Both the position numbers and the translations under genes were made by a program. From Winogradskyella sp. MH6 (lineage in GTDB: Bacteria; Bacteroidota; Bacteroidia; Flavobacteriales; Flavobacteriaceae), in the NCBI RefSeq assembly GCF_022810765.1, contig NZ_CP094494.1:1302001-1366000 (forward strand): a stretch of 64,000 nucleotides of DNA, in the 5' to 3' direction. A model generated the notes under the pieces. The model did not search any database and was not told the DNA's origin. It saw nothing but the letters and a program-made list of their open reading frames with translations. Shown piece after piece: positions 24,085 to 49,617 of the stretch (position 1 is its first letter; each line of letters begins with the position of its first letter).

Positions 24085-24831
24085 ATGAAAAAGAAGTTAG
24101 AATCAGAATTAATCAGCATTGCACATAGGATTCTAAAATTAAAAGGTAGAGAAGATGTCGATAGAATGCATGAGGAGGTTACCAAACTATATGAAAAGCT
24201 AACGGTCTTAAAATTTGCACAAGAAAATTTTGAAGACGATATGCCAACCATTGGTAATGATTCTTCATTTTTTGGTATGCTAGATGCCGCGTTTAATAAT
24301 ACTGTAAGCGATAATATTGAAATTGGAAATAAAACCTATGTTAATGTAGACGAGGTTGAGGACGACCAAATTACAGAGCCTCTAATGGAAAAAATTAAGG
24401 ATATGGTGGCCCAAATGCCAGACGAAAGCGAACAGGTAGATGTTATGGTAGAAGAAGCCGTCACAAATGAAAAGCCAACCACCATTGAATTTGAAACCAT
24501 AAGCTCAGATTTTGCTGATATCCCAGAATTTGAACCTATTGAAGAAGCTCAAAAACGTGAAGCAGAGCAAGCTAAAAAATCATTGAATGATAAATTAAAA
24601 GGCAACGGACTTCAAATAGGATTGAATGATAAATTAGCCTTTATAAAGCATCTTTTTGAAGGTAAAAATGAAGATTACGACCGTGTTATTTCCCAGATAA
24701 ACACTTCAGATTCTCTTGCGGAGGCTAGAACCCTTATTTATGATATGGTAAAACCAGATTATAATAATTGGGAAGGCAAGGAAGACTACGAAGAGCGCTT
24801 TATTGAAATTGTTGAAGGTAAATTTAGCTAG
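24085..24831 (+). CDS. Conserved acidic coiled-coil hypothetical protein
   Basis: A 248-residue soluble protein with no domain I can name. Residues 1-50 are helical (MKKKLESELISIAHRILKLK, VTKLYEKLTVLKFAQENFED). The middle is long and acidic (about 90-170, many Glu/Asp). The C-terminal 70 residues look folded and well ordered (LNDKLAFIKHLFEGKNEDYD, AEARTLIYDMVKPDYNNW). I believe similar proteins are conserved in the Bacteroidota, but their function is not known to me. It has a moderate leader region with an AACATCT/AGATGTT inverted pair of unclear meaning (about 24001-24050). It is convergent with the DUF11 gene, overlapping it by 4 nt at the stop codons. Confidence 0.75.
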   Translation: MKKKLESELISIAHRILKLKGREDVDRMHEEVTKLYEKLTVLKFAQENFEDDMPTIGNDSSFFGMLDAAFNNTVSDNIEIGNKTYVNVDEVEDDQITEPLMEKIKDMVAQMPDESEQVDVMVEEAVTNEKPTTIEFETISSDFADIPEFEPIEEAQKREAEQAKKSLNDKLKGNGLQIGLNDKLAFIKHLFEGKNEDYDRVISQINTSDSLAEARTLIYDMVKPDYNNWEGKEDYEERFIEIVEGKFS

Positions 24832-27800
24832 TAATTCAAATACACATACCCTTGTAGAGGTTTTGCAATTCCATTAATCTCTAAAATATAGAAATAGGTA
24901 CCAACAGGCAGTAAGCCAGACGATTTAGGTATGCCTCTGTTTGCCCTACCATCCCATGAGTTATCATAATTATTGGTTTCATAGATTAATGTGCCATAGC
25001 GATTGTAGATTTTAATTGTATTATCAGGAAAACGCTCAATACAAGGAATGACCAAAAAGTCGTTTTCTAAGTCCCCATTAGGAGAAATTCCTTCAGGAAT
25101 AGATAAGCAATTAGATATTTCTACAATGGCATCATCTTCATTGTTAGAGTCGTCTCTATCAACTTCATTTAAAGTGTTAAGAAAAGCAACATTCAACAAA
25201 TCGGTTGAAGCCACCACTAACACATTGATTTGTAAAGTTTCAGATTGATTAGGTTCTAAAACAGGAATAGACCAAGACAAAGAGCTATCATCAAAAATAC
25301 CAGAGCTTGTTGTGGCAGAAATGTATTCGTATCCAACAGGAAGCGCATCTAGAACCTGAACACCTGTTGCCTGTGTTGTACCAATATTTGTAGCTGTAAT
25401 AGTAAACGTTACTTCTTGGCCAACGATAGCTTCGGATGGCTCTACAGATTTTAAGATTTCGATATCTACATTTGAAGGATCAACAATAACATTTAACGTT
25501 GCACTTACTTGCGAAGCATCTAAATTATTTGTGTCGCTCATATTTTGAAAATCATTAAGATATGTGCCAGCAACATCTGAGGTTACCATTACCGAAAACG
25601 TACAACTTTCAACTCCACTCGGAAAAGTTAAGTCAGTAATCCCTACAAAAGTGTCTCCAGCAACACCACTAAATGTGGCTGTACATCCATTAGCATCAAT
25701 CCAAACAGGAGATGAGGTTAAAGTAACTCCAGTTGGTAAATTATCGGTAAAGGCTATACCGTTTTGAGTTGGGTTGGATGCAATATTATAGACTGAAAAA
25801 ATCAATTCACTTTCGTCGCCTTCAAAAATTGTATCTGGAAAAAATAGTTTATCAAGTACAGGAGATACCACCTGAACACTATTAACTGAAATATTAGTTT
25901 CTGGAGTTAATTCTTCATTGTCGGCAGCATTTGGAAAAGCTTCTGCAATGTTGTTAAATCCGCCTCCATAATTAGGTGCTGTTACAGGAATCGTCACTCT
26001 GATTGTTGAGCCAGCTTCCATTGAAGGAATTACTCCGGTTATTGTATTTCCGCTGATATTAAATGTAGAAATACAGGTTGCACTGCCAGAAGTTATACTA
26101 CAAGCTGGACTACCGGAAATTGTAAACGCGTTATCTAAAATGTTTTCAAATTGTATATCTATAGCACTAGAACTTGTGGTACTGTTACTTATGTCTACAA
26201 TCCAATCAAAAGGCTCTCCAGTATCTACTTGGGCAAATTCAGGATAAGTCTGCACTACTAAATCTATACAAGGAGCAAAGTATGTTTCTACAAATGCAGT
26301 ATTGTTACCAAGATTAGTCTCAGGAACATTATTTACATAATTTACTCTCACATAGTTTGTGCCAATCATAGGTTGTGTAGAACATTCTGGCTGCCAATCT
26401 ACGGTAACGGTAAATGATACCGAACTATTTGCCGGAAGTATCCAATTATCTTCAGGTAAAATCTCCCAAAAGGTGTCGAAGCTTCCGTCTTCGGTTGCTC
26501 CATCAAAAGTAACACCGATATTAGCATTTGCAATTGTGAAACAAGAGGCTGTACCAGTCGTTCCTGAACATTCCACACTAACTAGAGTTCCAGTAATAGG
26601 GACATCACCAGCCAATGGAACAGGCATGTGGTCTTGCACTTGTATAGGCTCATCAGTATTGCCATCATTGGTCACAGTAATTTCATAGGTTATTTCTCCC
26701 CATTCTGCAGTATTTGTTTGTGAACTTCCAATAGGTAATTCTGGAAAAATTTGAGTTTTTGTAACTTGTATGTCAGAAATATCTTCAGTATCACAAGGTT
26801 CCTCAGTAGGAAGTGTTATGTAGTTATAGTAATAATTGTTGTCAGTGTTTGTATCTATAGTTTGAGTTGGCAGGAGTACTATCTGACTTTTAATTGTAGC
26901 GTCAATTTGAGTTGGAAATGGGTTGCATGGAGGCTCTAGGAAAACCACTACCGTCTCAATGGTTATGGTAGTATTGGGCTGTAGTACAAATTCACTGCTT
27001 ACCCATAATTGGCCATTATCAGAAATTGTAAAATCTCCACAAGTAACAGGTCCGGTAGTTGTTATACAATTTACCGAAATTATATCCCAATCGACATTAG
27101 CCGATAAGTTTTGAATGAAGAAAAACAAAGGAGCTTCAGAAGGGCCATTATTACAAACTGTTGTTTCAAAAGTAACTTCTTCATTATAATCTATATCTGT
27201 AGTATCTGTAGGATCAATAATTTGGGTTTCAATGCATGCATCTGTTGTAGGACACTGGTCTGCATTTGGAAGAACAGTTTCTACAAAGTTGGATAGATTT
27301 GATGATACATTAGCATGATTTAAGGCAATTTCAATAAAGCTGTCGACCATAATGGGCATTGGGTCAGATGAACATGTAAAGTTGGTGTAGCGATAAGCCA
27401 TCTCAAAAGTAATACTGCCGCCAGATGTAATTTCAAAACCATCATTAAACGTAAAGATTGAAGGTGCGGTAGAGACGTTAGAAGTGGTAATGCTACTAGA
27501 AGAACCAGCAATAGTGCTTAAATCTGGACAAAGTGTGCCGTTGGTTGAGTCTATACATTCTATAGAAATAAATTCTGCAAATGGTTGACCATTTCCAAGG
27601 AGTGACGTTAAAATTAATCGACCTCTAATAACTTCAACAGGAAAGTCTATAGCACTATTATTAGTTATAGTGAATTGATAAGTTGCTTCGTCACCCCAAG
27701 CACCAACAGGTGTTCCGGGAGTTGGTGAAACTTGAGTGTGTGTCACTTCAAAATCAATAACAATATCTAACACATCTATAGAAATAATAGATTGGTTATT

Positions 27801-28241
27801 ACTGGTATTAGTGTCGGTTGTTCCAGCAGGAGGACTTATAGTACCATTAACAGCAATACCACCCAAGTTGGTAGGAGCAGAGACCAATACCAGGAACTCT
27901 ACGCTAGAGTTATTTGGCATATTTGCTACTGTAGCTGTTAATACATTTGCGGTAATAGAAATGCCTGAAACATCAGAGGCACCATTAATATTATTCTGGG
28001 AACTTGTTGAGAGTATGGTAATATCATCATCAAAATCTACTGAAATAGAGGCGTTGTTAATGGCATTACCAGAATTTGAAAGCGTAATTAAATATTGAAA
28101 ATCCTCATAAACATCTACCTGAGAAATGGCTGTACCACTTAGGTCTTGGACCTCTATGTTTATTGATAAATCTGTGGTTTGACTAAATAAGAAGGAGGAA
28201 CTATATAAAAGTATTAATAAAAGACAAAGCCGTTTTTTCAC
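24828..28241 (-). CDS. Giant secreted DUF11-repeat protein with T9SS type B (gliding-motility-like) C-terminus
   Basis: A 1137-residue exported protein built of Ig-like DUF11 repeats. The start codon is GTG (28239-28241); no ATG precedes it in frame. After a signal peptide (MKKRLCLLLILLYSSSFLFS) come about seven repeats of some 130-160 residues, each with the NNGxxxxxVxxxxxLP-type strand pattern (e.g. TNDGNTDEPIQVQDHMPV, TATNIGTTQATGVQVLDAL). The final 85 residues (ISPNGDLENDFLVIPCIERF, IKIYNRYGTLIYE, VGTYFYILEI) form the gliding-motility C-terminal domain, a T9SS type B signal. It is probably a long surface adhesin. It faces rsmI divergently and ends against the hypothetical gene by a 4-nt convergent overlap. 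Confidence 0.9.
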   Translation of the reverse strand: MKKRLCLLLILLYSSSFLFSQTTDLSINIEVQDLSGTAISQVDVYEDFQYLITLSNSGNAINNASISVDFDDDITILSTSSQNNINGASDVSGISITANVLTATVANMPNNSSVEFLVLVSAPTNLGGIAVNGTISPPAGTTDTNTSNNQSIISIDVLDIVIDFEVTHTQVSPTPGTPVGAWGDEATYQFTITNNSAIDFPVEVIRGRLILTSLLGNGQPFAEFISIECIDSTNGTLCPDLSTIAGSSSSITTSNVSTAPSIFTFNDGFEITSGGSITFEMAYRYTNFTCSSDPMPIMVDSFIEIALNHANVSSNLSNFVETVLPNADQCPTTDACIETQIIDPTDTTDIDYNEEVTFETTVCNNGPSEAPLFFFIQNLSANVDWDIISVNCITTTGPVTCGDFTISDNGQLWVSSEFVLQPNTTITIETVVVFLEPPCNPFPTQIDATIKSQIVLLPTQTIDTNTDNNYYYNYITLPTEEPCDTEDISDIQVTKTQIFPELPIGSSQTNTAEWGEITYEITVTNDGNTDEPIQVQDHMPVPLAGDVPITGTLVSVECSGTTGTASCFTIANANIGVTFDGATEDGSFDTFWEILPEDNWILPANSSVSFTVTVDWQPECSTQPMIGTNYVRVNYVNNVPETNLGNNTAFVETYFAPCIDLVVQTYPEFAQVDTGEPFDWIVDISNSTTSSSAIDIQFENILDNAFTISGSPACSITSGSATCISTFNISGNTITGVIPSMEAGSTIRVTIPVTAPNYGGGFNNIAEAFPNAADNEELTPETNISVNSVQVVSPVLDKLFFPDTIFEGDESELIFSVYNIASNPTQNGIAFTDNLPTGVTLTSSPVWIDANGCTATFSGVAGDTFVGITDLTFPSGVESCTFSVMVTSDVAGTYLNDFQNMSDTNNLDASQVSATLNVIVDPSNVDIEILKSVEPSEAIVGQEVTFTITATNIGTTQATGVQVLDALPVGYEYISATTSSGIFDDSSLSWSIPVLEPNQSETLQINVLVVASTDLLNVAFLNTLNEVDRDDSNNEDDAIVEISNCLSIPEGISPNGDLENDFLVIPCIERFPDNTIKIYNRYGTLIYETNNYDNSWDGRANRGIPKSSGLLPVGTYFYILEINGIAKPLQGYVYLNY

Positions 28242-30336: not shown

Positions 30337-33300
30337 TTAATCTTTAATCTCAACTGTATTTCCTGAGATCCAGGTTTTGTTTTCATCTCCATAGTAAAGA
30401 TAAGCAGTACTTGCAGGTGCTTGATAGTGGCCAGCAATATCAGCTTTTAAGTCGAGCCTAATATTTTTGGTTTCTGAAGCTTTAAATTCTCGCCAGTAAA
30501 ACACTAAATAATTATCAAAAATCTCATAAAAAGCCACCTTATTTTCTTCTAAAATCTTTTTTAATTGCCATGGTTGAGCTGTTGTTCCAGAAGGTATACC
30601 AACAATTGTGGTGACCATGCCTAAGGGTTCTTCGTTGGTGTTTGCCACAGATATATTAAAACTTACATTATCGCCAACCGAGTGGTTTTGTCCAGTAATT
30701 GTTGTTTCTAGTTGTAAAGGACAAGCCTTTGAACTATCTGGTAAAGTGCTATCCCAATTTACATTCAAAGTATAAGGAAATGTTGTCTTTGGGTTATTAA
30801 ACTTAACTGCAATAGTCTGTTTTCCTTGTTTTAGATAGTTTTCAAAACCGTTAATGGTGATTTTTCCATCGCCTGAAAGTTCTAATTTTTTAGTTATCGA
30901 TTTACCATTTACTACTAGAGTGATGTCATCGTTTTCCTCAAGTATTTTTTGCTTTTGACTTTTCGTGTAATTAATCAGAGCTTTAAGGGCCATTGCAGTT
31001 GCTTGTGTAGAGCCAAAACGGTTGTGTTTACGTTGTTTAATGAGATAATCTACACCTTCTGTTACGAGCACTGTATTTTCGTTTTTCTCGTCCATTAAAG
31101 CTAATACTGTAAGTGCTACGGTTTCTATCTGTTTTGAGTTACCGTAAGATCTGGTAATTGTATTTTCTACAGGTATTTTATCAAAACCATACTCCTCAAT
31201 ATTTGCTTTTATTTTGGCTAAAAGTGTTTTAAAGTTCTCTTCTTTATTGAGGTTATGACTTGCCATGGCTAGTAATGCCATTTTATAAGTATCATTACTT
31301 TTTATAGCATCTGCATAGGCTGTGTTATACTCTAGCATATAATCTGCATTGACACCAGATTCGCTTAATGCATAGACAATGTAAGCATTGGCAACATCTG
31401 TTGGTGAACTAGCAAAACTATCATAGCCTTTTTTACTTTTTTTGAAACCACCTTTACCGTCTTTTCGGCTTATTAACCAATCTACAGTTCTGGAAATCAT
31501 TTTGTCGCTTACACCATCGTATACTTCTTTCATTTCGGTAAATTCCAAAATTCCATAAGCGGTTAAGGTTTCGTGTGGTGGAGTATGACCAAACCATTCA
31601 AAACCACCTTCAGAAGTTTCAAAACCAATAAGCCTTTTGTAGCCTTGCTTTATAAAATCTAGAGCTTTAGCTTCAATTTCAGGATTGCTTTTGCCAGCTT
31701 CTTTCAGGTATTTTAAGACCATAATATTAGGATATGTTGAAGATGATGTTTGCTCAAAACACCCGTAAGGCTGACGGATTAAAGACTCAATACCATCCAT
31801 AACATCACCTACAATGTCTGTATAAATATTAAATTCTGTAGTAACGCTATTTTTAACAGCGTGGTTAATTTCAAAGTCAAACGTTTGAGTTTCTGAACCA
31901 GACAATGATAAAGAAGTTGGAAAATAAGGGCTTAAAATTGTTACCTTTTTCTTGATGATATCCTTATAATCTTCAGATTCAGCCAGAATGGAAATGTCTA
32001 AGTCCTTACCCTTTTCAAGAGGTATAACTTTTATGGTTTTGGTCACAGCGTCATTAGCGTCGACGATTAGTTTTTCGTCAATAGACGATACCAACTTTAA
32101 ATGTTCAGGCAATAGAAACTTTAAATTAGTTTCCATGGCTTTCTCAGTTTCATTTGTAATGGTAATTGCTAATGAAATGGTATCATTCAGCACCATGTAA
32201 TTAGGTGTTTTAATGTCTATGTTCAATAATTTCTTGGTAGCGTATAATTTATCAGCTTTGCCTACAAGGCCATTATAACCAATGCCTTCAGCAGAAATTT
32301 TAAACGATGTTACAGCATCAGAATTATAAAATTCAATTTCGGCAATACCATCAGCATTGGTTTGTACCACAGGATTCCAGTATATGGTTTGTCTAAAATC
32401 GGTACGCTCTTCTGGTAGATTTTTTCCTTCATAGATTGGCATGTAGAAACTTCTTGGAGTGTCCATGTGGTTTCGATTATAGTGATAAAATTGCTTTACA
32501 GCATAGTTTTTATAATCTCTGTTATTTAATCGTTTTACTGCTCCACTACTGTTTGGATATTTTCCGTGTTTTGTATTTATAAGAATAACACCATTAGAGC
32601 CTCTGCTACCATAAATGCTAGTTGCAGCAGCATCTTTTAGAACCGTTACACTGTTTACTTGCTGAGGGTTGATGTCGCTCAAAGCAGACTTATCATAAGG
32701 CACACCATCTACCACAACAAGAGGTTCGTTATTACCAGACATACTGCCAATGCCTCTGATTCTAACCGTTGCAGTACTACCTGGTTGTCCGCTACCATTT
32801 ATTATGTTAACACCAGCCACTTCGCCAGCCAAAGCATTCATTACAGAATTACCGTTGGATGCAATTTCTTCTCGCGAAATCACAGTCACAGAACCTGTAA
32901 CGGTTTCTTTACTTGTGGTACCATAACCCACAACCACAACTTCATCTAAACCGTTTTCACTTTCTTGTAAGCCAACAGATATTTGTGCTTTTTGTTTAAT
33001 AGCCTTTTGTAGCGGTTTTTCATTTTTATCAAATGATTTAACCTTTTCTTTATTTTCTATGTTTTTAGTTGATGTTTGGCTGTAATAGCTTCCTTTTTTT
33101 AAGTGTGTTTCTTTAATAGTAACACGTTCTCCATTGTCTTTATAGGCCAATAAAGTCAAGTGATAATTATTGTTGAATTTAAAAGCGAAAGAACCATCTT
33201 CTTCGGTGTCAAAAACCAAAACTTTATTACCATCTCTATCAAAAAGCAGTAAATGTGCTTGGGTTGGTTTCTCTTTTTTGTTGAGCACAACACCAGTTTG

Positions 33301-34911
33301 TATAGCACTCTGTTCTGGTAGGTATTGTGCATTCTCCTTAGTAACGGTAGGAGCATTGATATAGTCTCGCCAACCATGAGTTAGCATTACATAATCTATT
33401 GCTTTTTTTGATTTTGGCTCTTTTGGATTCAAGTAAAAATCTGGCTTATGAATTTTTCCTTTCAGTTCAGAAGACACCAATAAATAAGATAAAATATGGT
33501 CTTGCTTGTCGTCAGCAAAGGACAGTAATTTATTATCTGCAACGGCTAATGATAAGTTTGCAGGAATAGGATTCTGCTTTTCATCATATGTTTTTATAGT
33601 AAGTTTTACTTTTTCTCTGGTATTATATTGGTTCTTATCTAGGCTGAGGTCTACATGAAGTTTTTTGTGAGGATTTAGAAATACTAAACGCTCTGCGAAT
33701 GTACTACCATATTCATTTTTTAAACTGAATTTGGTAATGCCCATAGGATATTCTGAAGTGTTTAAACTTATATTTTTTTTGAGACCGATTTCCTTTTTTA
33801 AGAGCAATGTGTTTGCATTAGAAACTTCAAGAAATAAAGGTGTGCTATAAGTTGAAAAAACATCTAAATTGGTGGATAGACTATCAGTTGTAACAGAAAA
33901 CCGAACACCATTTTCATGCACTTTTGGTAGCTGAATTAATTCCTCAGAACTGAAAGGTTCTGTGATTTTAGCATAGTATACCTCGTCCTTAATTGGGTTA
34001 AAATTGAAGCTTCCCATGCCATCATGAAAACTTTCAAAAGTTGAAATGGTTTCTCCTTGTGCATTAACAATATCGCCTTGGAGATCTACAGGTTTTCCAA
34101 ATTCATTAAGGGCTTTAAAAGCAACTTTATTTAAAGTGCCTGCTACAATTTTGCCACTTTCTGGTAAAAACTGAAGATCAATAGTGTTTAAAACCACAGG
34201 AACAGCTCTTGAGATAGATTCTGTAGTGCCTTTGTGATATACCAAAGCGTTTAAAACCACATCAATGGACTCTAAGTTTTCTGGTAATGTAAAGCTGGGT
34301 TTGGCTTTACCGTCTTTGTCTGTAACCACAACATCATTTATAATGTCTGTGCCTTTTACACTCACTTTATATGTAACTTCAGTATGGGATAAAGGTTGAT
34401 TTTTTAAATCCTTAACTTCAAGATTTGCGATAACCTCAGAGGATTTTCCGTACCCTTCTTTTTCGAATTTTAAATTAAGTAACAGCTTAGGTTTTACCAC
34501 TTTTTGAATAGTGATTTTTTTGGTAAAAAATGAATCTTCACCATAATTACGCATCCAATTGGTGTAGCATTTTAAAGTGTAAATGCCACCAACCCAATCC
34601 GAGCTTATATCAAAATTTCCGTAAGCATATCCTTGTTTCACATTAAGATTTAAGGATGTTACAACAGCGCCTTTAGGCGAAATTAATTCCGCATGCATTA
34701 CATCACTGATGGTCGTAATAGTATTGTCTGTATCGACGATGTAAGATTTAAACCAAATGGTTTCTCCAGGAAAATAGAATGGTCTGTCCGTTTGTGTGTA
34801 TATCTTCTCTAATGGATTATTAAATGCTTCAAAAGCTTTATAGGACAGCAACGTGAAGAAGCAAAGTCCGGCAATTACCAAAAGTTTGGTGTTTTGTATA
34901 AGTTTTTTCAT
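30337..34911 (-). CDS. Alpha-2-macroglobulin family protein with an inserted TonB receptor plug domain
   Basis: A 1524-residue exported protein. An N-terminal hydrophobic segment (about 9-27) without a lipobox acts as signal peptide or anchor. Macroglobulin MG domains follow (IYTQTDRPFYFPGETIWFKS at about 37-56, MG2-like). Residues about 654-783 are a full SusC-type TonB plug: LDEVVVVGYG, TATVRIRGIGSMSG, PLVVVDGVPYD, NSVTVLKDAAATSIYGSRGS, NGVILINTKHG. The A2M domain resumes near 839 (DFRQTIYWNPVVQ). The thioester motif is PYGCFEQTSS, Cys1051 and Gln1054, then the helical thioester domain to about 1340 and C-terminal MG/receptor-binding-like domains. A2Ms trap proteases through a cleavable bait and reactive thioester; here the plug sits about where a bait would be. 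It lies 5 nt downstream of a plug-less SusC-like barrel gene. The reading frame is continuous, so it is not two broken genes. Confidence 0.9.
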   Translation of the reverse strand: MKKLIQNTKLLVIAGLCFFTLLSYKAFEAFNNPLEKIYTQTDRPFYFPGETIWFKSYIVDTDNTITTISDVMHAELISPKGAVVTSLNLNVKQGYAYGNFDISSDWVGGIYTLKCYTNWMRNYGEDSFFTKKITIQKVVKPKLLLNLKFEKEGYGKSSEVIANLEVKDLKNQPLSHTEVTYKVSVKGTDIINDVVVTDKDGKAKPSFTLPENLESIDVVLNALVYHKGTTESISRAVPVVLNTIDLQFLPESGKIVAGTLNKVAFKALNEFGKPVDLQGDIVNAQGETISTFESFHDGMGSFNFNPIKDEVYYAKITEPFSSEELIQLPKVHENGVRFSVTTDSLSTNLDVFSTYSTPLFLEVSNANTLLLKKEIGLKKNISLNTSEYPMGITKFSLKNEYGSTFAERLVFLNPHKKLHVDLSLDKNQYNTREKVKLTIKTYDEKQNPIPANLSLAVADNKLLSFADDKQDHILSYLLVSSELKGKIHKPDFYLNPKEPKSKKAIDYVMLTHGWRDYINAPTVTKENAQYLPEQSAIQTGVVLNKKEKPTQAHLLLFDRDGNKVLVFDTEEDGSFAFKFNNNYHLTLLAYKDNGERVTIKETHLKKGSYYSQTSTKNIENKEKVKSFDKNEKPLQKAIKQKAQISVGLQESENGLDEVVVVGYGTTSKETVTGSVTVISREEIASNGNSVMNALAGEVAGVNIINGSGQPGSTATVRIRGIGSMSGNNEPLVVVDGVPYDKSALSDINPQQVNSVTVLKDAAATSIYGSRGSNGVILINTKHGKYPNSSGAVKRLNNRDYKNYAVKQFYHYNRNHMDTPRSFYMPIYEGKNLPEERTDFRQTIYWNPVVQTNADGIAEIEFYNSDAVTSFKISAEGIGYNGLVGKADKLYATKKLLNIDIKTPNYMVLNDTISLAITITNETEKAMETNLKFLLPEHLKLVSSIDEKLIVDANDAVTKTIKVIPLEKGKDLDISILAESEDYKDIIKKKVTILSPYFPTSLSLSGSETQTFDFEINHAVKNSVTTEFNIYTDIVGDVMDGIESLIRQPYGCFEQTSSSTYPNIMVLKYLKEAGKSNPEIEAKALDFIKQGYKRLIGFETSEGGFEWFGHTPPHETLTAYGILEFTEMKEVYDGVSDKMISRTVDWLISRKDGKGGFKKSKKGYDSFASSPTDVANAYIVYALSESGVNADYMLEYNTAYADAIKSNDTYKMALLAMASHNLNKEENFKTLLAKIKANIEEYGFDKIPVENTITRSYGNSKQIETVALTVLALMDEKNENTVLVTEGVDYLIKQRKHNRFGSTQATAMALKALINYTKSQKQKILEENDDITLVVNGKSITKKLELSGDGKITINGFENYLKQGKQTIAVKFNNPKTTFPYTLNVNWDSTLPDSSKACPLQLETTITGQNHSVGDNVSFNISVANTNEEPLGMVTTIVGIPSGTTAQPWQLKKILEENKVAFYEIFDNYLVFYWREFKASETKNIRLDLKADIAGHYQAPASTAYLYYGDENKTWISGNTVEIKD

Positions 34912-34916
34912 AGTAT

Positions 34917-37745
34917 TTATATTTTTAAGTTGACTTTTAACCCAACTTCACTCATTAAAGGAGTATTGAAAAAGTTAAGATTATGTCCAGAATTGGTATC
35001 AAAAAGTGATGAATAAGGAGATGCTCCTCTGTATTTTGTAAATGTGATGAGGTTATGAGCGTAAAGTCCTATTTCAACTTGCCTGAAAAAATCATAATTA
35101 CTTTTAGCAAAATCATAAGAGAGCTCAATGGTTCTTAAGTTAAGATAGCCAGCATCTTCAATAGCTTCTTCTGCAACACCACTGAAGCCGTAGCGTACAA
35201 AGCGGTTATTTTCAATACCATCTTCAGGATTATAAAAATCTACAGGAATTGTATTGGTATTGCCTTGTGTGTTTACACCATTAAAAACATAATTTGTAAT
35301 GTTTCTTTGATCTGCAGATTGTCGTGATCTGCCAAAATAGTTAAGTACATTTTGAGTACCATTCCATGTATCTCCACCCTTTTGGTAGTCTAACGTGAAA
35401 TGGAATTTTAATTTCTTCCAGGTAAAACGATTAGAAAAGCCAAGTGTAAAATCTGGTACAGGATTACCAATAATTTGTTGTTCTGTATCTACAATTGGGT
35501 AGCCATTGCCATCTATAATGATATTGTTTTGAGTGTCTCTTGCAAAAGCAGTTCCTACAATAACACCAGCAGGTTGGCCAACGATTAAATTTTTAGACAC
35601 ATTTTGAAAACCTGCAATTGGTACACGCTCTTCATTATTGTATAGTTTGGTAACCTTATTTTGGTTTGTCATAAAGCTTAGTCTGCTATTCCAACGCACA
35701 GAGCCAAACCTTTCAGAAACATCTAATTGCAGCTCTAGACCTTTATTGGTAATATCTGCAATATTTTGAAGTTGAAATTGATTGCCTTCCAAAACAGGGA
35801 ACATACTTCCTTTGGTTTTTGAGCCAAAATAGCTTGCAGTAAAATCCCAATAAGCATCCCATAAATAAAAGTCTAAATCGAGATTAAAAGAATAATCGTG
35901 TCGCTCTTCTAAATCTAAGTCTTCGTTTATAAATAAGTCAATGTTACTAGTGTAGCCAAGACTTTCTGAAGGTAATAACTGCAGACTGTTGTGACTTTGA
36001 TTGTTGTAAAAAAGAGGCATTTCATTAACATCAAAAGCACTTGTTGCGCTAAGCGAAAAATCGTAAAAATCATAGATGTCTAAAATATCTGCTAAATCAA
36101 CTTTTATAATAGATGAAGGTAATAGCAATTTGTTTTTCTGAATGGAAGATATATATGAAGTATTACTAAATATAATTTTAGAGTGTCTCTTGTATTCTAG
36201 AGCAACAGACTGATGTGGTCGCAGCACATTTCTATTAATGCGATTAGAGATTTCAGTGGTGTTATTTGGATTTGAAAATGTAAGGGCATCAAAACCCTCA
36301 GATTCTTTGAATGTATAATCTAATTGCTCATTTTTAAATCTAGTAATGGAACGTACATCTATGGAAAAATCTCCTAAGTATTTATCATAGTGCAAGTCTA
36401 GCATAGCATTGAAGCTATTGTTTTTTATGGTTTTGTTGCTTAGATAACCGTTTTCAAAACCTACAGTATTGGTAAACAAGCCAAATTTTTGTTCGTTTTC
36501 CGCTGTTTTATAGCTTAGTTGACTTCCTATTGAAAAGTCATCACCAATATTTATGTCATTTTCTAGGTTGGCTACAAATAAGGTGTTAGCATCATAGTTT
36601 TTATGGTTAAACAGCCATTCAGGATTGTTGTAGTTGGTTGGGCTAAAACTGCGTTGTGTATTGTCTGGTAAAACGCTGCCTTGACCATTATTAAAAGACA
36701 CAGGTGTTACCCATGAATTTAAAAGGAGGTTATTTCTAAATCCATTAATGTTAGGTTGGTTGTTTTTCCAGTGGCTGTATTTAATAAATGATTTCCAACT
36801 TAGTTCTTCACTGTTACGATTAAGGGTTTTAAAGTTTAGTACAAGATTGTTATTTATTTTTTGTGCTCTACCAAAAATATCTTCAGTGTTTTTATGACTA
36901 AAGTCAAGTCCTGTAGTCCATTCATCTGTATCAACATCAAAATACACATTGGTAAATCTACTAATGGCAGTATTTAACACGCTATTGTTGTACTGCTTAG
37001 AGCTAACTCCATTTCCATTGCCTTGCGTAACCAGTCTGCCGTTGTTGTCGTATATATAATTACTTCCATCAAACTCTAAAGTATTTAGGTTTGGTCCATA
37101 AGAAAAGATGCTTCCTGTTTCTGGCCCTAAAAAAGCAATAGATCCATTTTCGGTGGCTCCTTGGCTGTAGGAAGATTGTAACTTTGGTAAGTTACTTTCC
37201 TTAACAAACTGAAAGCTTAAGTTAGATTTTACTCCAACCTGAAAATAAATATCTGGATTAAAATAGGTTAGGTTAACATGTTCTGGGTCCAGTTGAATGT
37301 CTTTAATTCTATGCAAAGCGTTATAGTTACCTTTTTTGTTGTAGCTATGTTTTGAATTTGCTATGGAAGGTATTTTAAAACGTTCTTTTTTTTTGTTTTT
37401 TAAAGCTTCACTATAAGCGTCAGTTTCAATAGGTTTTACTTTTACTCGCTTAACCGCTGTTTTTTGTATGGCTCCGAACATATCAGCTGTCACTGTAATT
37501 TCCTTTGGATCCATACCAACATAGCTAATAACTATAACATCACCTACGTTACATTTTATACTGTAATTTCCATCAAAATCGGTTTGTACTCCATTGGTTG
37601 TTCCTTTAACAAATATATTTGCTCCAGGAAGTGGTAATCCGTCTGATGAAGTGGTGAGTGTTCCTGTTACCGTTCCTTCTTGAGCGAAACAGAACACTGG
37701 GAATAATATGAGCAATACGAATATTTTGAATGTAATTTTATTCAT
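34917..37745 (-). CDS. SusC-like outer-membrane barrel protein lacking a recognisable plug domain
   Basis: A 942-residue protein. The signal peptide ends near CFAQ (residue 22), and a carboxypeptidase-like regulatory domain follows (about 23-90; GTVTGTLTTSSDGLPLPGAN). SusC proteins next carry a plug of about 130 residues with IRIRG, VIDGV and IYGSR motifs. None of these is here; only a basic linker of about 75 residues (KNKKKERFKIPSIANSKHSY) leads into the barrel, which begins near IYFQVGVKSNLSFQFVKESN. The rest is typical SusC barrel (NRFTWKKLKFHFTLDYQKGG, GYLNLRTIELSYDF) ending in SEVGLKVNLKI. It is the first gene of an operon with the A2M protein, which carries the missing domain type. No SusD lipoprotein is nearby. 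The substrate is unknown. Confidence 0.88.
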   Translation of the reverse strand: MNKITFKIFVLLILFPVFCFAQEGTVTGTLTTSSDGLPLPGANIFVKGTTNGVQTDFDGNYSIKCNVGDVIVISYVGMDPKEITVTADMFGAIQKTAVKRVKVKPIETDAYSEALKNKKKERFKIPSIANSKHSYNKKGNYNALHRIKDIQLDPEHVNLTYFNPDIYFQVGVKSNLSFQFVKESNLPKLQSSYSQGATENGSIAFLGPETGSIFSYGPNLNTLEFDGSNYIYDNNGRLVTQGNGNGVSSKQYNNSVLNTAISRFTNVYFDVDTDEWTTGLDFSHKNTEDIFGRAQKINNNLVLNFKTLNRNSEELSWKSFIKYSHWKNNQPNINGFRNNLLLNSWVTPVSFNNGQGSVLPDNTQRSFSPTNYNNPEWLFNHKNYDANTLFVANLENDINIGDDFSIGSQLSYKTAENEQKFGLFTNTVGFENGYLSNKTIKNNSFNAMLDLHYDKYLGDFSIDVRSITRFKNEQLDYTFKESEGFDALTFSNPNNTTEISNRINRNVLRPHQSVALEYKRHSKIIFSNTSYISSIQKNKLLLPSSIIKVDLADILDIYDFYDFSLSATSAFDVNEMPLFYNNQSHNSLQLLPSESLGYTSNIDLFINEDLDLEERHDYSFNLDLDFYLWDAYWDFTASYFGSKTKGSMFPVLEGNQFQLQNIADITNKGLELQLDVSERFGSVRWNSRLSFMTNQNKVTKLYNNEERVPIAGFQNVSKNLIVGQPAGVIVGTAFARDTQNNIIIDGNGYPIVDTEQQIIGNPVPDFTLGFSNRFTWKKLKFHFTLDYQKGGDTWNGTQNVLNYFGRSRQSADQRNITNYVFNGVNTQGNTNTIPVDFYNPEDGIENNRFVRYGFSGVAEEAIEDAGYLNLRTIELSYDFAKSNYDFFRQVEIGLYAHNLITFTKYRGASPYSSLFDTNSGHNLNFFNTPLMSEVGLKVNLKI

Positions 37746-47112: not shown

Positions 47113-49617
47113 CTAAAAATACACGCGAATAACAGCATTAGTCGTTAGACCTAAAGAGAATCGTGAAAATTTGTTTACAGTATTGGTTTCATTTATCCTG
47201 TAATAATCATTTATAAAGTTTTCTCTATTTGAAATGTTCCAAATAGAAGCACCTATCTCCGATCTAAAACTGTTGTTAATTTTGAATTTGTAGATAGCGG
47301 AAGCGTCTATTCTTAAATAATCCAATAAGCGTTCATTATTTGCTATATCAAAATTAACATCATTGTCTACAATTTCGTTACCAGATAGAGGTATAGAGGT
47401 TGGGTTTCCTGTTCTGTAATTTACACCAGCAGAAATGTTTAAAGATTTATTACTAAAGGTGGTTCCAAGAGTAAAGGAATGGGTAATGTCAAAATTACTA
47501 GGAAACTCTATGTCTTCAAGAGCTTCAAATGTGTATGTGTTATTTAAATAAGAATAACTTAACCAACTATTAAAGTTACCGAATGTTTTTCGGCACAAAA
47601 ACTCCAAACCGTAAGCGTCGTAGCTCCCCTTTTCTTTTGCAAATTCGTATTTTGTGGTAAAACTTTGGCTTTGGGTAGTTATCCCTTCAACAGTTTTATA
47701 GTATCCTTTAACATCAACCAGCCAACCACTTTTTTTAAATAATATTCCTAAAGATGCTTGTTTGCTTTGTAAAATAGGAATACTATCATTATCTGTTAAT
47801 TGCCATCTTCGCTTTTCAATGCCTAAAAAATCATTTTGAAAATTAACAATCTGTGAGGTACTCTGATGTTTGTATTCGCCTTGAGCCTCAATTTCTATAT
47901 GTTCTCCAATAGATTTTCTAACACTTAGTCTTGGCTCAACAATCAATTTATTGAACTTGGTTAAGTAATTTGTTCTAACTCCGACCCTAAAAGCAAAATC
48001 TTCATTTCGGTTTTTGTACCAAGCCTGGCCAAAAGCTCCGTGCTCTAGTAATATTTCTTCATCTCGTCTCACAAAACGAGGCAAATCAATATCGTTTAAG
48101 TTGATGACTTCGGTTTCTGTGAATTGATAACCAAGATTAAAACTCCATAGATTTTTTACATATAAATTATTTAGTTGTGCGCTCGTTTCTGAAACAATAT
48201 TTTCTTGTAATTGAAGCTGGTTGCTTAACACATCTGCATTAAGAGCATCGAGCTTATATTCGTTATTATATGCATTAATTGTTGAGGAAAAATTAGTACT
48301 CCACTTTCTTTTATAATTAAAACCAACACCAAGGCTGCTCTGAGATATGTTACTGCGCCTTGTTCTAGATGCTCCATTAATGGTTGCGGTTTCATTAAAC
48401 CCTAAATCGTTATTTATTAGAATAAAATTTAATCTAATAAAGTCTTTATCTGTGGGTTGATATAACCACCTTAAGGACGCATCATAAAAATTAAAGTCTT
48501 GTTTGGAGTTGGTTACATTTGAAGTATTGATCTCAGCCTCAGTATCTTGTGTTACTCTGTCAAAATAAGCCTCATAGGTCGGAGTTCTAAAAAAGTTATC
48601 TAAGGATTTTCTTGATGCAACTTGGAGTGACGACTTTCTTCCTATGGGAATATTAGAGAACAACTCAGCATTTAAAAAGTTAATCCCAAAAATACCATTG
48701 AATTTTGAATCGACCTGTTTGTCTGTCAGCATATGAATTGTCCCAGACACACCATCGGTTAATGAAGCATCAGAGCCGTTATTAATAACACGTGCTGTTT
48801 GGGTCATTAAAGGGTTAAAGCTAGAAATAAGACCAAAAAAATGACCTGTCTGGTACATTTTTATACCGTCCCAAAGCATTAAATTTTGATCATTAGAACC
48901 TCCTCTAATATTAATGTTTGAAACCGTTTCATCAACACTCAAAATACTTGGTAGTGCTTGAACGGTCTGTAAAACATCAGATTCTATAAGACCTGGCAAC
49001 AGACTAAATCGCTCATAATCTATAGATGTTGTCCAATCCTGTCGTTTATCAATACCTTTAACAAGATATGTTTCAACCACTACAGGTGCTATAATCTCTT
49101 CTTGAATACGCATTGTTATAGTTGCACAATCTTTTAAGTTGAAATATTTTACCTGGCGTTCAACGGTTTTAAAACCTAGATGTCTTATGGTCAATAGTTC
49201 ATTTTGTGATTTCAGCTCAATTTCAAAATACCCGTTTTTATCAGTGATGGCATAAGTAGACTTGCTGGTAATAGTGACATCAGCCATAGGTTTTTGAGAT
49301 TCGGAATCTTTAATATAACCACAAAGCTTGATGGCTTTTGAAATGGTATAGACCAAAGTACTAACCTTATCAAAAACTAGGTTGGTTTGGTCTTGGAGAT
49401 TCTTAATCTTAGCAGACAAGCTCAAATCTTTTGTAACAGGAATTACTGTAATATCCTCTAAAAGACTACTCTCGTAATTAAATGTTATGTTATGCGATTT
49501 TGAGATATCTTCTAGAACCACTGAAATGGGAACTTTCTGCTCAGAGTTTTGCCCTTGTGATTTGAACAGCGAAAAGAAACAAATAAAAAGAAAAATGTAC
49601 AATCTAGTTCTTTCCAT
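47113..49617 (-). CDS. TonB-dependent receptor with signalling (STN) domain
   Basis: An 834-residue outer-membrane receptor of the FecA-type signalling class. The signal peptide ends near KSQGQ (residue 22). The STN/secretin-type N-domain (about 25-90; VPISVVLEDISKSHNITFNY, NLVFDKVSTLVYTISKA) contacts the FecR-like protein. A carboxypeptidase-like domain follows (about 96-175; GYIKDSESQKPMADVTITSK), then the plug (about 190-310; ALPSILSVDETVSNINIRGG, NLMLWDGIKM). The C-terminal barrel ends RFSLGLTTNAVIRVYF. Substrate unknown. The start overlaps the fecR-like gene by 14 nt, and the order sigma-fecR-receptor forms a classical cell-surface signalling unit. Confidence 0.93.
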   Translation of the reverse strand: MERTRLYIFLFICFFSLFKSQGQNSEQKVPISVVLEDISKSHNITFNYESSLLEDITVIPVTKDLSLSAKIKNLQDQTNLVFDKVSTLVYTISKAIKLCGYIKDSESQKPMADVTITSKSTYAITDKNGYFEIELKSQNELLTIRHLGFKTVERQVKYFNLKDCATITMRIQEEIIAPVVVETYLVKGIDKRQDWTTSIDYERFSLLPGLIESDVLQTVQALPSILSVDETVSNINIRGGSNDQNLMLWDGIKMYQTGHFFGLISSFNPLMTQTARVINNGSDASLTDGVSGTIHMLTDKQVDSKFNGIFGINFLNAELFSNIPIGRKSSLQVASRKSLDNFFRTPTYEAYFDRVTQDTEAEINTSNVTNSKQDFNFYDASLRWLYQPTDKDFIRLNFILINNDLGFNETATINGASRTRRSNISQSSLGVGFNYKRKWSTNFSSTINAYNNEYKLDALNADVLSNQLQLQENIVSETSAQLNNLYVKNLWSFNLGYQFTETEVINLNDIDLPRFVRRDEEILLEHGAFGQAWYKNRNEDFAFRVGVRTNYLTKFNKLIVEPRLSVRKSIGEHIEIEAQGEYKHQSTSQIVNFQNDFLGIEKRRWQLTDNDSIPILQSKQASLGILFKKSGWLVDVKGYYKTVEGITTQSQSFTTKYEFAKEKGSYDAYGLEFLCRKTFGNFNSWLSYSYLNNTYTFEALEDIEFPSNFDITHSFTLGTTFSNKSLNISAGVNYRTGNPTSIPLSGNEIVDNDVNFDIANNERLLDYLRIDASAIYKFKINNSFRSEIGASIWNISNRENFINDYYRINETNTVNKFSRFSLGLTTNAVIRVYF

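Follow-up and report, generated by a model that had tools for sequence, protein, structure and literature searches.

The 64,000-nucleotide stretch of Winogradskyella sp. MH6 analysed here (contig NZ_CP094494.1, positions 1,302,001 to 1,366,000; hereafter the window) holds two adjacent genes on the reverse strand, one for a SusC-type outer-membrane barrel of 942 amino acids that lacks a plug domain (34917..37745) and one for an alpha-2-macroglobulin (A2M) of 1524 amino acids that carries one (30337..34911). A gap of 5 nt separates them (34912..34916), and coordinates, strand, lengths and gap agree with a preliminary description of the region. By comparison of sequences, the barrel gene is without plug and TonB box, both of these lie in the bait slot of the neighbouring A2M, and the two genes are inherited as a unit, hence the split described earlier proved both reciprocal and conserved. 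We read the pair as a SusC-type transporter divided between two proteins, with the plug provided in trans by an A2M bearing a thioester trap, and put the probability of this reading at about 0.62.

A plug-less barrel gene beside a plug-bearing A2M gene

The barrel gene was characterised from its open reading frame (ORF) with Pfam, NCBIfam, AlphaFold and Foldseek; all features below are on the reverse strand, with coordinates in the window. The protein starts with an N-terminal extension (NTE) of the carboxypeptidase-regulatory-like type (CarbopepD_reg_2, residues 26–88, 37482..37670; PF13715, E 1.1e-14) and matches the SusC model TIGR04056 with an E-value of 1.1e-57, which is below that model's cut-off. 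The barrel itself is complete and spans residues 167–941 (34923..37247; AlphaFold, Foldseek). Its AlphaFold model, from 33 aligned barrels, has 22 strands as counted by hand from the strand list and a mean pLDDT of 70.6, and its top Foldseek matches in the PDB are SusC proteins (BT2261-2264 complex, E 4e-39, TM ~0.64). In place of the TonB box and plug stands a linker from the NTE to the first strand (residues ~89–166, 37248..37481; Pfam, AlphaFold). No plug was detected in this protein at E ≤ 1 with Pfam or NCBIfam, nor with a hidden Markov model (HMM) of SusC plugs run with its filters off, and no DEVVV-like TonB box was seen after the NTE when the sequence was read by eye. A plug hidden in the barrel protein is ruled out by these searches, and linker residues 103–145 are of low confidence in the AlphaFold model (pLDDT < 50). 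The barrel is thus plug-less, as first described.

The A2M gene (ORF, Pfam, NCBIfam) encodes an MG2 domain (residues 36–118, 34558..34806; PF01835), an A2M/MG7 domain (residues 842–931; Pfam) and a thioester domain (TED; residues 1029–1315, 30967..31827; PF07678, E 2.8e-34). The thioester motif GCFEQ (residues 1050–1054, 31750..31764) is intact and invariant in a 20-row alignment, and the wider pattern P-x-G-C-x-E-Q is present in 164 of the 164 A2M homologues kept. Ahead of the MG7 domain, the segment LDEVVVVGYG, which includes a SusC-type TonB box (DEVVVVG, residues 656–662, 32926..32946), directly precedes a plug. Box and plug together occupy residues 656–785 (32557..32946), and the plug is complete and of SusC type, matching PF07715 at residues 668–775 (E 1.7e-19, 70.8 bits against a cut-off of 23.9) and the SusC signature TIGR04057 at its end (residues 752–781; NCBIfam). 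The NTE and the barrel are therefore on one protein and the TonB box and plug on the other; the intact thioester and the complete plug were both recognised in the preliminary description.

Its placing of the plug at the bait region also bears up, both in the comparison of this slot between homologues and in the AlphaFold model. The model covers A2M residues 24–998 (72 aligned rows, mean pLDDT 81.5; model residue r is protein residue r+23), and all 50 Foldseek matches listed for this 975-residue N-terminal part are A2M or complement proteins. A linker of low confidence (residues 612–673, model residues 589–650; 32893..33078; pLDDT < 50) includes the TonB box and is a candidate bait. The segment between plug and MG7 (residues 786–835, 32407..32556), fast-diverging in alignments, is a second bait candidate with an alpha'NT-like end.

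Inheritance of barrel and plugged A2M as a unit

We searched for homologues with the A2M, with its C-terminal part or with an A2M alignment, and then read their neighbourhoods. This gave 174 A2M loci, in collections of 34, 80 and 60, that of 80 being the best 80 of 571 confirmed loci; from the 65 matches of one homologue search G840, G963, G1048 and G1109 were left out. A filter on length and domains passed 164 loci, 99 with a SusC-type plug and 65 without. Dropped from the two-by-two comparison of plug and upstream barrel were two frame-split A2Ms, each with a plug and a barrel (L129, L156), five with a plug and a start off the contig (L143, L145, L146, L152, L168), and three truncated or split A2Ms in which no plug was called (L166, L183, L187). 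The upstream gene was not visible for one plugged A2M (L180) and three without a SusC-type plug (L169, L226, L234).

A plug-less barrel lies directly upstream of the A2M in 98 of the 98 testable loci with a SusC-type plug and in 0 of the 62 without. The named and unnamed collections overlap, and after five identical A2Ms were removed the counts were 93/93 and 0/62. Spacing between barrel and A2M is mostly 2–6 nt, and ranges at the extremes from ORF calls that overlap by 269 nt to genes 50 nt apart. The expectation that plug-bearing A2Ms always sit beside plug-less barrels thus holds for plugs of SusC type; it fails for divergent, non-SusC plugs, which occur without an adjacent barrel (L192, L235, L251; see below).

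Profile searches of whole genomes, which scored a few best candidates per genome (5, 2, or up to 9 depending on the search), found the barrel family and a plugged A2M together in 26 of 395 genomes of the order and in 12 of 99 relatives, two panels that overlap. The barrel is full-length in 25 of the 26; that of G404, shortened and outscored by two intact cousins, was identified by its place. Within the genus of the window 11 of 60 genomes have both barrel and plugged A2M and 49 have neither, and in the order of G570 (98 genomes) the search found G570 alone. An A2M with a SusC-type plug and no barrel was never found in the panels searched. The pair occurs in Winogradskyella, Psychroserpens, Aquimarina, Kordia, Leeuwenhoekiella, Chitinophaga, Niastella, Xanthocytophaga and Chryseolinea, among others, and conservation across so many genomes rules out chance or an assembly artefact. 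The two-by-two comparison, taken with a tree of the A2Ms, indicates that plug and barrel have been inherited together.

Some loci depart from the common arrangement. In two sister A2M lineages the barrel partner has only 802–806 amino acids (L088:3649-6069 and L139), either a shortened gene or a real shorter barrel. Several plug-less barrels of Chitinophaga-like loci (L164-L191; ~810–900 amino acids) also lack the N-terminal carboxypeptidase-like domain. In one relative (G011) a 156-residue protein of two half-plugs is encoded directly upstream of the plug-less barrel (L044:4623-5093, forward strand).

Constraint on the plug and the bait slot of other A2Ms

With the SusC-plug HMM the 99 A2M plugs scored 86–180 bits and 20 intact SusC plugs, which are its training set, 186–212 bits. 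The 100 adjacent barrels reached at most 1.7 bits with all filters off; a further barrel row, at 177.9 bits, belongs not to the partner but to a distinct SusC-like gene downstream of it in L159. Plugs found elsewhere scored 32–116 bits (16 VWA/anti-sigma-like proteins), at most 39 bits (14 small A2M-like proteins without a TED), 52 bits (an M56 protein), 41 bits (the half-plug protein) and 67 bits (a second A2M in L193). Plugs beside a plug-less barrel hence score nearer to SusC, which indicates more SusC-like constraint than in the solitary plugs examined. Among 72 aligned plugged A2Ms, R719 and G720 of the plug are invariant and E657-V658 of the TonB box nearly so.

Purifying selection acts on both genes, as dN/dS was below 1 in every scorable segment over nine pairs. 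Values of 0.03–0.30 over the barrel segments (one, without synonymous changes, went unscored) rule out a decaying or pseudogene barrel. Divergence within the A2M is fastest in the N-terminal half of the plug (residues 656–725) and the flanking linkers (601–655 and 786–835). Indeed, this half-plug has only 71–73% identity to four close relatives (L038-L041), while A2M residues outside 601–835 have 92–100% identity to the same four. Its dN/dS of 0.14–0.55 in eight of the nine pairs, with 0 in the other, does not support positive selection; recombination or relaxed constraint may lie behind the divergence.

The near-invariant TonB box also bears on the possibility that the barrel is a mere outer-membrane anchor, in which the fit of plug in barrel does the work of a lipid anchor, keeping a periplasmic A2M at the membrane, and the pore never opens. 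A plug seated in a barrel would be a stable tether, and by a simple pattern a lipobox is rare, in 1 of 99 plugged A2Ms and 4 of 65 others, so that another anchor would be useful; in the A2M of the window the N-terminus looks signal-like by eye, and the same kind of pattern finds no lipobox. An anchor would not, however, need its TonB box kept, and in most A2Ms lacking a SusC-type plug both a lipobox and an adjacent barrel are absent, hence an anchor seems not to be required. We consider this explanation unlikely.

Most A2Ms that lack a SusC-type plug have, from the middle domains to MG7, a variable and bait-like linker, disordered as judged by eye, and no similarity to a plug was found in the 55 such slots shorter than 230 residues (HHalign probability 0.1%). 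A conserved segment of the type YYRARxFAAPxY...RTDFR follows the slot in both classes of A2M. By their place, slot and segment appear to correspond to the A2M bait and alpha'NT; in human A2M, bait cleavage and retraction of alpha'NT trigger the conformational change (PMC9352918). Among the 65 slots without a SusC-type plug, three hold a divergent plug (L192, L235, L251; Pfam, E ≤ 0.001) and five a TonB C-terminal domain (PF03544; L169, L203, L250, L251, L252), L251 having both together. None of the six of these seven loci that could be judged has an adjacent barrel, the upstream gene of L169 not being visible.

Plug and A2M meet in other settings as well. A family of A2M-like proteins of 790–960 amino acids lacks the thioester domain (L048-L055, L111-L113, L153). 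Plug remnants were found by HMM at the same position in five of 14 such proteins, and 13 of the 14 are in loci without a barrel match, L153 being just upstream of a barrel/A2M pair. The preliminary description had named two observations that would speak against it. The first, a plug in the barrel protein, was not found by sensitive search. The second was homologues whose plugged A2M has no adjacent barrel and whose barrel partner has its own plug; on a strict form of it, the divergent plugs of L192, L235 and L251 and the remnants in loci without a barrel match speak against the description. In L193 a second A2M-like protein of 2005 amino acids with a plug (48 bits, Pfam) is encoded downstream of the first (L193:12433-18450, forward strand). 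An M56/BlaR1-type protease of the same genome as the window (G000:C1:2143387 region, L056:9388-11583, reverse strand) ends in the C-terminal half of a plug, and a short protein beside it has by eye the look of a BlaI-type repressor.

The preliminary description held that the plug had moved from the barrel to the A2M, an origin that the scores do not support. With an HMM of A2M plugs, the plugs of 20 ordinary SusC genes (two, L261 and L262, incomplete) scored 146–162 bits and those of the barrel's five nearest intact cousins 113.7–129.4 bits (L274 first ORF, L275, L276, L277, L279). A plug from the barrel's own ancestor is therefore not favoured, as the cousins' plugs score below other SusC plugs. 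A plug tree built on few columns places the A2M plug of L047, from the family considered next, nearest to the plugs of VWA proteins.

In family f5 of the order, which we guess to be Weeksellaceae, the operon runs from an extracytoplasmic function (ECF) sigma factor through a membrane protein with plug and VWA or YfbK domains and the plug-less barrel to the plugged A2M (sigma factor to barrel at L047:2360-8041, same place in L092-L110); some f5 loci have a VWA/YfbK gene in between. The sigma factor is a Pfam match in L047 and an ORF of similar size in the other loci. Of 20 f5 loci 18 showed the second plug, and the remaining two were cut off at the edge of the stretch read. The protein bearing this plug has, by eye, an N-terminal anti-sigma-like region and one membrane segment. 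A role in transducing force at the inner membrane has been proposed for VWA proteins with a YfbK-like fold (PMC12204202), and the f5 protein may be a sensor sharing the barrel. This arrangement, with scores of 32–116 bits in the 16 second-plug proteins, would suit surface signalling, in which the barrel is filled by alternative plugs, from the A2M or from an inner-membrane ECF anti-sigma-like protein, and its occupancy reports the state of the envelope to the sigma factor. No sigma gene was found among the genes scanned in the flanks of the window pair, and we regard signalling as an improbable account.

Proposed working of the barrel/A2M pair

Under the reading of a split transporter with a trap, occupancy of the barrel by the plug in trans is likely, and the A2M plug would probably enter the adjacent barrel's lumen from the periplasmic side. 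In TonB-dependent transporters the plug has both of its ends towards the periplasm. Given this, the signal-like N-terminus and the lack of a lipobox, the A2M body is predicted to sit in the periplasm under the pore. Supply of a plug in trans has precedents, as an FpvAI barrel made without its plug is restored in part by a soluble FpvAI plug (PMC10994204), the cork and barrel of FhuA have been studied as separately made proteins (Braun 2003, as cited in PMC2615193), and the SprA pore of the type IX secretion system (T9SS) is sealed by a separate Plug protein (PMC10994853).

Whether TonB can bind the TonB box of the A2M and pull the plug we put at even odds; if it does, it would pull the A2M's own plug, so that pore opening and strain on the bait slot would be coupled. 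The A2M could be activated by such strain or by cleavage near the plug, with thioester capture at the pore mouth. More tentatively, the thioester domain might then capture whatever comes in, or whatever cuts the linkers on either side of the plug, be it a protease or some other protein being imported, and by such capture the unit would be a gated trap guarding one outer-membrane pore.

A bolder version, which we think doubtful, is a TonB-powered trap. The bait of the A2M would be replaced by a plug; inserting this plug into a dedicated plug-less barrel would cock the trap, and a TonB pull or a nearby protease cut would fire it, so that protein coming in is captured covalently at the mouth of the pore. 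In certain lineages the second plug, on an ECF anti-sigma-like protein, would compete for the barrel and signal to transcription that the trap has fired. On this account the bait slot in the A2Ms of Bacteroidota would be a docking site for the TonB system, holding a plug, a TonB C-terminal domain or plain bait.

Several results weigh against a plug supplied in trans. A mirror-tree analysis of 93 pairs showed no plug-specific co-divergence with the barrel: the correlation with the barrel was 0.62 for the plug, 0.91 for MG2, 0.95 for the middle part, 0.93 for MG7, 0.76 for TED and 0.47 for the C-terminal part, and after correction for TED and the middle part 0.20 for the plug, 0.30 for MG2 and 0.36 for MG7. 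A FastTree phylogeny of 159 A2Ms shows only about two changes of plug state, one of them being the long branch of L192, which has a divergent plug only, with neither SusC-type plug nor barrel, hence the two-by-two comparison does not amount to 160 independent trials. L192, L235 and L251 demonstrate that a barrel-less plug in this slot exists, albeit of non-SusC type, and the second plug-bearing protein of f5 means that the barrel may have another partner. The core of the A2M plug is modelled with only modest confidence (block mean pLDDT 48–67).

The lack of a special tie between plug and barrel in the mirror trees would also fit a plug that serves as a protein-binding or force-sensing domain for TonB or another partner, beside a barrel that is an open or differently gated pore. 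Plug-like or TonB C-terminal domains do occur outside barrels, in A2M slots (three plugs and five TonB_C of 65), the M56 protease and five of the 14 small A2M-like proteins. Solitary plugs, however, score low against the SusC-plug HMM, whereas the barrel-paired plug keeps SusC-like constraint and its type was never found without a barrel in the panels searched; we think this explanation very improbable.

The pair combines features of known systems. Like SusC/RagA TonB-linked transporters (TIGR04056; BT2264, Bt1763), the barrel protein has an N-terminal PF13715 domain and a 22-strand barrel, and through its partner A2M the pair has a TonB box of the DEVVVTG kind and a SusC-type plug. Unlike in those transporters, TonB box and plug are on another protein, and a Pfam scan of the window's flanking genes (CMD, OsmC, Sel1, TP_methylase, DUF11/CHU_C) found no SusD. 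In Bt1763 the Ton box DEVVVTG follows the PF13715 domain, and its mutants grow poorly on levan (PMC7782687). The A2M shares MG2, MG7/A2M and a TED with CxEQ thioester with type I bacterial A2Ms (E. coli YfhM/ECAM, Salmonella A2M), but here the bait slot holds a TonB box and plug and the gene adjoins a barrel gene; type I A2M genes adjoin PBP1c in a number of bacteria (PMC5764988).

As in T9SS SprA with its Plug, an outer-membrane pore would be sealed by a separate polypeptide. SprA is not known to be a SusC barrel, nor its Plug to be part of an A2M or a PF07715 domain. FpvAI split in the laboratory is alike in that a TonB-dependent barrel partly works with its plug in trans, but that split was engineered and the plug was alone, not part of another protein. 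In a full-text search of open-licence PMC, no barrel/A2M pair of this kind was described in the titles or abstract openings among the matches listed.

Two further genes on the reverse strand of the window were noted. A protein of 834 amino acids with a carboxypeptidase-like domain and a weak plug (27 bits; 47113-49617) is probably an ordinary TonB-dependent protein, and one of 1137 amino acids (24828-28241) combines a DUF11 domain with a type IX secretion signal of the CHU_C kind.

The usual teaching is that a TonB-dependent transporter is a single self-plugging chain. That many Bacteroidota carry the barrel/A2M pair suggests a pore closed, and perhaps worked, by a second protein. A natural and widespread plug-in-trans unit would make it testable whether the plug leaves the barrel whole and what re-inserts it, and also what the complement-like A2Ms of bacteria guard. 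Furthermore, the finding draws attention to a class of proteins with borrowed plug or TonB domains, among them A2Ms, VWA/anti-sigma-like proteins and M56 proteases.

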